Source of the DNA: Myxococcales bacterium
GTDB lineage: Bacteria > Myxococcota_A > Polyangia > Polyangiales > Houyiibacteriaceae
Reading direction: 5' to 3'
Assembly: GCA_029861865.1 (NCBI GenBank)
Contig: JAOTYL010000002.1
Location: forward strand, 248,001 to 312,000
Length of the DNA stretch: 64,000 nucleotides
The position numbers were made by a program, and so were the translations under genes. The notes below the pieces were generated by a model. It was not told the origin of the DNA, ran no database searches, and saw nothing but the letters and a program-made list of their open reading frames with translations. Positions 27,978-33,380 of this stretch are shown here, in pieces (position 1 is the first letter of the stretch; the number at the start of each line of letters is the position of its first letter).

Positions 27978-28050
27978 GCCACCGTAGCTCAGTTGGTAGA
28001 GCAACGGTTTCGTAAACCGTAGGTCGTTGGTTCGAATCCAATCGGTGGCT
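27978..28050 (+). tRNA. tRNA-Thr(CGT)
   Basis: All four arms fold: acceptor GCCACCG/CGGTGGC (7 bp), D arm GCTC/GAGC, anticodon stem ACGGT/ACCGT around TTCGTAA (anticodon CGT, reading ACG), and T arm GTTGG-TTCGAAT-CCAAT. CCA is not encoded. The 3' part from 28006 is the left attachment core of the integrative element, so the bases after the anticodon stem are now supplied by the element, which keeps the tRNA intact. The integrase gene on the other strand ends inside this tRNA. Confidence 0.97.
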
Positions 28051-29251
28051 CTGTAGTTTCGGGCACTTGGATGTATGGCGAATTTGGCGTTGACCAATCG
28101 TTGACCAATCCGGGAGCTACTTTCGAGTCGTCTGACCACTGCTCGACCGCCTCATTGGCCACGCGCCGAATGGAGTCCGGGGCAAGGCGCGCGTACCGCT
28201 CAGTCGTCGTTCGACTCGTATGCCCGAGCACCACCTGGACTTCTTCGAGTCGCCACGCTCTACCCCACGTCCCCATGATCAGGTGGCTTGCACAGGTATG
28301 CCGGAGGTCATGGAAACGCACGTCCGCTCGGATTGCCGCCGCGGAACGCCATTTCTTGGCCCACTGCGCGTCATACCCCTTCGTGTGCATGGCTCCGTCT
28401 CGGGCGTGAAAGACGAGGCCTGCCGCCCGGGTGACGTCGTCTCTGCGCCTCCAGCGCGCCAGCTCCTCGAGGACAGGCGGCAGCATCGGGATGCGACGAA
28501 CCTTCCCGCCTTTTGTAGGCCCATCGAAGGAGTAGCGCACGAGGATCTCCCGCTCGTCGAAGTCGACATCCTCCCAGCGGAGGCCCCAGATCTCCCCGGC
28601 TCTCATTCCCGCATAGATGGCGACCGTCAACGCGGTGCGCTGCTTGGCGGGGAGGTGGGGAAGATCGAACACCGCACGAATCTCGTCGTTAGTGAGATAG
28701 GTCCAATCATCGTCGGTTCTCGCCTGACGCGGCACACGCACACCTTTGCAAGGATTTCCGCTAGCCCTACCGGCCGCGACCGCGTCGGAGAAAGCCGAAG
28801 AGAGGGCATTGAGCGCGTTCCTCAGTGTCTGCTCGGCGAGTGGCTTGCCTTTGCGCGGCCCGTGGGTCGCGCGTTGCGTGACGAGCTCCCGCAACCACTC
28901 TTGGACGTGTCGTTGCTTGACCGAGCGGAGTGTGAGCGGGGCGACACCCGAGGGGAAGATATGTCGATCCCACAGTGCGCGGGTGTCCTTGACGCTTCGG
29001 TGCGTCCCCCTTCCCTCACGATCGTCCAACCACTGCCTTCCCCAAGCCGCAACGCTGAGGCTCTTGGAATGATCATGCAGAAGCTCGTAGTAGGCCTGCG
29101 ACTGAGCTCGCGCTTCGTCGATCGTGTCAAAGCACCCGAGAGACTCCCGCTTTCCGTCGATCGTCGCGCGCAGTCGGTAGCGGATTCCCTTCCCCGTGGT
29201 AATCGGGGTGATCGTACCCAGGGCGCACTCTGTGTTTCTTCGAACCCTCAT
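27989..29251 (-). CDS. Tyrosine recombinase (integrase) of the tRNA-Thr element
   Basis: 420-residue phage-type integrase. An arm/core-binding N-terminal half (about residues 1-180) precedes the catalytic domain with Arg217 (GMRAGEIWGL), Lys250 region, His314 and Arg317 (FHDLRHTCASH), His344 (VLGHTS) and nucleophile Tyr353 (ERYARL). All catalytic residues are present, so the enzyme looks active. The end is unusual: residues about 400-415 (EPPIGFEPTTYGLRN) are encoded by the attachment core, and the final RCSTN plus stop come from the host tRNA 5' half. In the excised circle the frame would continue into the segment at 33191-33333, giving a 462-residue protein. Its ATG overlaps the stop of the 86-codon gene (ATGA). 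Confidence 0.95.
   Translation of the reverse strand: MRVRRNTECALGTITPITTGKGIRYRLRATIDGKRESLGCFDTIDEARAQSQAYYELLHDHSKSLSVAAWGRQWLDDREGRGTHRSVKDTRALWDRHIFPSGVAPLTLRSVKQRHVQEWLRELVTQRATHGPRKGKPLAEQTLRNALNALSSAFSDAVAAGRASGNPCKGVRVPRQARTDDDWTYLTNDEIRAVFDLPHLPAKQRTALTVAIYAGMRAGEIWGLRWEDVDFDEREILVRYSFDGPTKGGKVRRIPMLPPVLEELARWRRRDDVTRAAGLVFHARDGAMHTKGYDAQWAKKWRSAAAIRADVRFHDLRHTCASHLIMGTWGRAWRLEEVQVVLGHTSRTTTERYARLAPDSIRRVANEAVEQWSDDSKVAPGLVNDWSTPNSPYIQVPETTEPPIGFEPTTYGLRNRCSTN
28006..28052. repeat. Left attachment core (attL), 47-bp direct repeat
   Basis: Covers the tRNA-Thr 3' part from within the anticodon stem to two bases past the tRNA end. It is identical over 47 bases to 33334-33380. Beyond it, about 16 more bases resemble the chromosome outside the right repeat (GTAGTTTCGGGCACT against AGTAGTTTCCGGCACT), so the element's attachment site mimics sequence past the tRNA as well. 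Confidence 0.95.
28089..28110 (+). promoter_or_regulatory. Tandem arm-type recombinase sites, left arm
   Basis: Two adjacent exact copies of GTTGACCAATC, 36 bases inside the left core. An exact inverted copy lies 38 bases inside the right core (33285-33295). The near-symmetrical placement fits arm-type integrase or directionality-factor sites. They lie within the integrase coding region (VNDWSTP). Confidence 0.6.
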
Positions 29252-29508
29252 CGGCGGAGCTTACCCAGGGAACGCAACTTCTCATAGGCCCGGCTACGCT
29301 CTCGGTCCGTGGCTCGAGCAGGGGCTAGCTTCGGTTCATTCGCCTCTTCCCCCTTCAGCTCTTGCAGCAACTTCTCCAGCGGCTCAGGAGCAAGCCATCG
29401 ACGGGCGGCCCTCGCAATTTCGGGAAGCGTGAATCGGCGATCAGACACGACTAGCTGAGACGAAATATCCTCGTTTGAGCTGATTGTTTCACCGATGATC
29501 CGGGCCAA
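29248..29508 (-). CDS. 86-residue protein coupled to the integrase, possible directionality factor
   Basis: Starts at TTG with GAGG eight bases upstream; no in-frame ATG exists before an upstream stop. The stop overlaps the integrase ATG (ATGA), so the two are translated together. Residues 24-42 (RRFTLPEIARAARRWLAPEP) could form a helix-turn-helix, and the C-terminal third is basic and polar. It has the size and place of an excisionase or recombination directionality factor, but I see no family match. It could instead be an autoregulator of the operon. Confidence 0.65.
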   Translation of the reverse strand: MARIIGETISSNEDISSQLVVSDRRFTLPEIARAARRWLAPEPLEKLLQELKGEEANEPKLAPARATDRERSRAYEKLRSLGKLRR

Positions 29509-29595
29509 AGTGATTGCCTCACCCTAGTTATTGGTTTTGACCCCCGATAAGTTGCGCGAGATCGCGATTTTTTTCCGCGCGCTGCTCCCCCAGAG

Positions 29596-33182: not shown

Positions 33183-33190
33183 GCCTCCGG

Positions 33191-33333
33191 TCATTGCTCG
33201 GTGGGGCATTTCCGACACTTCGGACAACGAATGATGAGTTTCGCTAACTCTTCGATCAGCTCCTCGATGCGCTCCAACGGACACGATTGGTCAACAGGCA
33301 CCCTAACCTCTTGAAAACATTGAGTGCACCTTG
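33191..33333 (-). other. Detached integrase C-terminal tail segment (Cys-rich)
   Basis: On the minus strand, reading out of the right attachment core in the same phase as the integrase uses at the left core, the frame stays open for 47 codons to a TGA at 33191-33193. It begins PRCTQCFQEV, has an amphipathic stretch LERIEELIEELAKLII and ends RCPKCRKCPTEQ. CTQC and CPKC could form a zinc-ribbon-type site. In the integrated state it has no start codon and is presumably untranslated. Joining the element ends would restore it to the integrase. It is packed tightly against the beta-helix gene, as a real gene end would be. Confidence 0.6.
33285..33295 (-). promoter_or_regulatory. Arm-type recombinase site, right arm
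   Basis: GATTGGTCAAC, the exact reverse complement of the tandem left-arm sites, 38 bases inside the right core. It encodes part of the detached tail (VDQS). Confidence 0.6.
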
Positions 33334-33380
33334 GGTTTCGTAAACCGTAGGTCGTTGGTTCGAATCCAATCGGTGGCTCT
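33334..33380. repeat. Right attachment core (attR), displaced tRNA-Thr 3' end
   Basis: 47 bases identical to 28006-28052. It holds the 3' anticodon-stem strand and the T and acceptor 3' parts only; without the 5' half it is not a second tRNA. This is presumably the original chromosomal 3' end displaced by integration. Confidence 0.95.

Follow-up and report, generated by a model that had tools for sequence, protein, structure and literature searches.

An excisionase is the usual explanation for the directionality of tyrosine integrases. In the locus described here, the recombination event itself would edit the recombinase, a logic that phage Mx8 and a small number of further cases had already shown in bacteria. 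The passages on Mx8 in PMC6070905 and PMC4701971, through which the primary reports on its integrase IntP are cited (Tojo 1996; Magrini 1999), place attP inside the integrase gene and have integration replace the 112 C-terminal residues of the protein by 13. According to the corresponding passage of PMC4701971, the altered integrase is less active. In the Mx8 record D86464, the core is annotated with flanking repeats on either side, all of them inside intP. A review of self-disrupting recombinases (PMC8371274) describes them as exclusively archaeal.

The element analysed here resides in a 64-kb stretch of DNA, which we refer to as the window. It is an Mx8-type arrangement and follows a known principle; the present analysis adds evidence of selection on the exchanged tail, candidate arm sites embedded in the gene, the possibility that tandem neighbours lend each other tails, and the recurrence of the arrangement across the order.

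Attachment sites and the joined integrase frame

The two ends of the element are an exact direct repeat of 47 bp with a spacing of 5328 bp (Table 1). The left copy is the 3' part of a tRNA-Thr(CGU) gene, and the 47-bp core lies inside the integrase reading frame. The preliminary description had the integrase frame pass through this core and end with RCSTN in the tRNA gene; the reading frame, the ARAGORN prediction and the coordinates of the repeat all agree with this. Because the Phage_integrase domain spans residues 185–357 of the 420-residue integrated form (Pfam E 1e-25), the catalytic domain is untouched by integration. The same protein matches a PHROG integrase with an E value of 1e-64, and no close relatives of it were found in plasmids, phages or viral contigs. 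A synteny search with the right flank saw no empty attB in the relative that carries this flank of the window.

Circularisation of the element in silico gives a 462-residue integrase, as had been proposed, which ends in PRCTQCFQEV...RCPKCRKCPTEQ (the full tail sequence in the joined protein is PRCTQCFQEVRVPVDQSCPLERIEELIEELAKLIIRCPKCRKCPTEQ). By sequence, integration swaps this tail of 47 residues for one of five and keeps the catalytic domain. The stop codons of the tail (33193–33191) and of the convergent cargo gene (33182) are eight bases apart, in agreement with the earlier reading.

Table 1. Features of the integrated element and its attachment sites (positions in the window)
Feature	Position	Strand	Evidence or remark
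tRNA-Thr(CGU) gene	27978..28051	+	ARAGORN; restored by attL (host 5' part and element core)
Tyrosine integrase, integrated form, 420 aa, ends RCSTN inside the tRNA	27989..29251	-	Pfam Phage_integrase
attL core, 47 bp, identical to attR core	28006..28052	+	repeat comparison
Two candidate arm-type integrase sites TTGACCAATC (28090-28099 and 28101-28110)	28090..28110	+	inside the 3' end of int
86-aa ORF, overlaps int start	29248..29508	-	87% conserved in G005
Cargo: trypsin-like secreted protease	29980..31686	+	Pfam Trypsin E 2.7e-13
Cargo: repeat-rich lipoprotein-like protein, choice-of-anchor Q domain	31686..33182	+	NF041518, E 4e-10
Displaced integrase tail, 47 codons and stop, CxxC...C...CxxCxxC	33191..33333	-	conservation, codon test
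Candidate arm-type site TTGACCAATC in the tail arm	33285..33294	-	inverted relative to the int-arm pair
attR core, 47 bp	33334..33380	+	repeat comparison

The motif TTGACCAAT occurs three times in the window, where 0.2 occurrences are expected, and all three are in the att arms. Two of them, starting at 28090 and 28101, form a direct repeat on the plus strand within the last int codons, and the third (33294–33286) is inverted in the tail. Their distances to the core are 38 to 58 bp on one side and about 40 bp on the other. This layout is that of arm-type integrase sites, from which we infer binding; as the putative sites flank the core within the gene, the whole attP would be embedded in the int coding sequence. 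One further copy of the motif with a single mismatch (CTGACCAATC), located on the minus strand at 29596–29605 upstream of the 86-aa ORF and int, is possibly regulatory.

The 86-aa ORF has no match in Pfam or PHROG and is a candidate excisionase or regulator. The 5.3-kb element has no recognisable replication or transfer genes. Its cargo (29980–33182), a trypsin-like protease and a choice-of-anchor Q protein, is of the exported type, and so is the cargo of a relative (L005:3573–9049), which consists of a multicopper oxidase and a DNRLRE protein.

The surroundings of the element carry traces of their own. The host flank to the right of attR (33381–33396, AGTAGTTTCCGGCACT) resembles the left end of the element (28053–28068, GTAGTTTCGGGCACT), which suggests that an older, decayed element may lie beside attR. 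The T-arm of tRNA-Thr(CGU) (27978–28051 and homologues L063–L075) exists as two alleles in the genus, GGTTCGAATCC and AGTTCGACTCT, which look as if elements exchange the 3' half of this gene.

Conservation of the Cys-rich tail

A protein search recovered 14 substantial copies of the tail in nine of the 19 genomes of the genus; in most cases, the tail is in frame beside a copy of the core. A DNA search recovers the same 14 copies, which rules out a bias of the protein search in the collection. Among 183 genomes of the order, matches to the Cys-rich tail outside the genus are only weak. The best relative, L005, comes from a Myxococcales MAG (the same genome as G005) and has an integrase that is 87% identical and uses the same tRNA. 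The presence of the tail in related elements had been named beforehand as a test of the idea, and L005 carries it twice, 83% and 77% identical to that of the window over 47 residues, each copy abutting a copy of the core.

At L005:1470–1760, the end of an integrase (TPNSPYIQVPEKMEPPIRVELMTYGLRN), a core and a tail are contiguous and in frame, and form one ORF of 96 aa, which confirms the expectation that the joined junction keeps the frame. It stands to the left of the second tail, and the integrase upstream of it is a remnant only. The region is a tandem junction between two elements and shows that the joined frame exists in nature. Another tandem junction is seen in G152:C20 (L158/L201), where a C-terminal integrase remnant, a core and the tail of the neighbour are contiguous; there, the shared stretch is 145 bp long and includes the integrase-side arm.

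Ten aligned copies have five invariant cysteines in the pattern C-x2-C-x11-C-x18-C-x2-C, and the two CxxC knuckles of the tail are conserved in relatives. The preliminary description had suggested a zinc ribbon. The conserved CxxC pattern speaks for it, but the fold is not backed by the AlphaFold model of the tail, which is of low confidence (pLDDT 68, pTM 0.35) and has no fold match in the PDB, so that the zinc ribbon is a cysteine pattern only and is unproven. Searches of Pfam, PHROGs, NCBIfam and PDB sequences gave no credible match for the tail family.

Past the stop codon, the aligned tails are no longer similar. The complete copies G011a and G008b share one in-frame deletion of 9 nt. The pN/pS ratio is 0.49 for all 14 copies, while about 0.82–0.83 is expected under neutrality (p about 0.0005), and 0.41 for codons 21–47 of the nine open copies (p 0.0005 or less). 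The neutral expectation was derived by simulation along the tree, and 1/2000 or fewer of the simulations reach the observed ratios; the tail copies are related and their tree is shallow, and a frameshift in G014a was removed for the codon alignment. Over codons 21–47, ratios of about 0.9 to 1.1 are obtained in the other frames, and the true frame is far below them. The tail, as compared between these copies, is a real coding region under purifying selection. The earlier proposal that it is a true gene end is thus upheld by its conservation, by the boundary at the stop codon and by selection at the level of codons.

These results bear on the view that the tail is a chance open frame next to an ordinary tRNA-integrated element. 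A frame of 47 codons is not rare when taken alone, and the antisense T-arm is open in many tRNAs, but conservation in relatives and the codon test rule chance out for practical purposes, and the natural junction and the recurrence across the order speak against it as well.

The serious rival is a reading in which the DNA of the tail is conserved solely as the right arm of attP, with binding sites for the integrase, and the frame has no function as protein. A candidate arm site is found in the tail and in its counterparts, and variation is almost absent from the first 20 codons, silent sites included (pS 0.12 versus 0.44 further on); these codons are constrained also as DNA, presumably because the candidate arm site is there. 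Integrase-less remnants keep the tail, too. Intact integrases with the Cys-rich tail are known in two cases only (G000 and G005). Of the other copies in the genus, most belong to remnants or to segments that lack an integrase but retain one or both ends of the element, and there the tail DNA may persist as an attP arm rather than as protein. Against an exclusive role as DNA, codons 21–47, which lie past the arm site, have pN/pS ratios of 0.41–0.45 (p below 0.0005), conservation stops at the stop codon, the cysteines are retained, and the helical tails found elsewhere in the order likewise have ratios of 0.38 to 0.45. We therefore regard a role as arm DNA alone as unlikely; the two roles of the tail, as arm DNA and as protein, can coexist.

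The tRNA-Thr locus is a hot spot: C-terminal remnants of integrases adjoin it in several species. Many integrase-less copies have a core with a hairpin-rich insert of ~25 nt (GCTGCGAAGCAGCAGCGCGTAGCGC and variants), which occupies the position of the variable loop in the tRNA-derived core (L028, L029, L030, L031, L033, L037, L038 and L042). This insert is absent from the genome of the window.

A separate life of the displaced tail is the third alternative: in the integrated element it would be a small protein of its own, with a start upstream in the host flank, and would act in trans. The integrated frame is indeed open through attR and for 114 codons upstream. In other elements, however, the in-frame flank is unrelated host DNA, a conserved start or ribosome site was not found, and the arm region of the tail is useful only in attP, all of which makes an independent peptide very improbable.

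Tail domains across the order

Across the order, the frames of related integrases extend through the antisense 3' half of the targeted tRNA, which may be Thr, Arg(CCT), Arg(CCG), Arg(TCT), Arg(ACG), Gly, Asn or Lys. In those elements whose far end was located, an open tail of 90 to 99 residues carries on in the phase of the integrase. Across many genomes of the order (L200–L229; examples are L201, L202, L204, L208 and L211), attachment sites are followed in frame by a helical domain of about 70 residues with the signature ...GGPxxxRxAxELAxxVL....

A profile of the helical tail domain built from four tails matches 32 of the 183 genomes in 19 genera, with some weak matches being due to chance (e.g. 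a kinase, L227). Of 29 loci inspected, 15 have a perfect antisense T-arm hairpin no more than 330 bases upstream and in the same open frame; the background of such hairpins is 0.11 per kb per strand. Seven elements of which both ends were found (G180, G022, G153, G152, G181, G044 and G042, the first three of which were outside the input of the profile) belong to several families of the order and target tRNA-Arg or tRNA-Asn. In all seven, the integrase and tail-domain frames are in the same phase and the frame is open through the core. Two of the seven have the same arm layout with other motifs: a pair of direct repeats in the integrase-side arm and inverted copies in the arm of the tail. In G138, the integrase and the helical tail domain form one uninterrupted ORF. 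Pfam has no credible match for the two helical tails and the joined G138 protein tested, and the single-sequence model of the G138 integrase is poor except for small end domains.

In sequence, the Cys-rich tail resembles neither the helical tails nor that of Mx8, so the genus appears, as far as sequence comparison reaches, to use a different tail domain in the same position. Tail swapping with attP inside int appears to be common in the whole order. A broader proposition, for and against which we see the chances as equal, is that tail swapping would be a general and long-maintained control of the tRNA-targeting integrases of the order, exerted by a dedicated C-terminal domain, helical in most lineages and Cys-rich in the genus, that belongs to the enzyme in the excised state alone and thereby reports the integration status to the recombinase.

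Tail exchange and comparison with known systems

The reading that we prefer, and consider probable, is that attP with its core and arms lies inside the 3' end of int, that the circular form encodes a 462-residue enzyme with the Cys-rich tail, and that integration swaps this tail and damps recombination. The circle would encode the integrase with its conserved tail. Upon recombination with tRNA-Thr(CGU), the catalytic domain would stay at the attL side with five residues in place of the tail, and the tail coding sequence would be stranded 5.3 kb away at attR. By analogy with Mx8, the full-length form of 462 residues would be the more active, integration-competent enzyme and the form of 420 residues a damped one, so that loss of the tail would curb recombination after integration and stabilise the element. 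It would then remain stable, if the analogy holds, until another copy or a tandem neighbour supplied full-length enzyme. In tandem arrays, a downstream integrase would be completed by the tail of the adjacent element. The prediction is that a resident integrase is re-armed by a tail borrowed from a tandem neighbour or an incoming copy.

Taken together, the data suggest a design that is under selection and widespread within one bacterial order; its tail domain is uncatalogued, and a Cys-rich variant of the design occurs as well. They also carry two warnings for annotation: the C termini of integrases called from integrated elements would be those of truncated products, and a short conserved frame at the far end of such an element would belong to the integrase.

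The preliminary description had drawn parallels to SSV-type viruses and mycobacteriophages. The likeness in having attP inside a gene holds for both, but the closest parallel is myxophage Mx8, which it had missed. The integration-dependent immunity of mycobacteriophage BPs (PMC4557955) shares with the present element an attP within a coding gene, the product of which is altered by integration; unlike here, the altered gene encodes the repressor and not the integrase. Streptococcal ICEs integrated in rumA (PMC4701971) differ in having a serine integrase and another target, with no tRNA involved. The suicidal integrases of archaea (SSV, pTN3, pT26-2; PMC8371274) also have attP within the integrase gene and a gene that integration changes. 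Their gene is split into inactive halves, the catalytic domain being cut from the N-terminal part, whereas in the present element the catalytic domain is intact and the C-terminal tail alone is lost.

Mx8 is a phage and not a 5.3-kb element with cargo. Its integrase is 28% identical to the 420-residue integrase over part of the length, with an alignment in the N-terminal half only. Homology of the tails was not detected, and the profile of the helical tails matches neither Mx8 nor the joined integrase of the window at a significant level. The Uoi gene upstream in Mx8 has no similarity to the 86-aa ORF. The Mx8 tail, too, ends in a helix-like stretch and a CxxC. Both systems have a tyrosine integrase of a myxobacterial element with the attP core inside int, and repeats flank the core on both sides within the gene, those of the present element being candidate arm sites. 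In both, a long C-terminal tail is replaced by a short one and the catalytic domain is kept.
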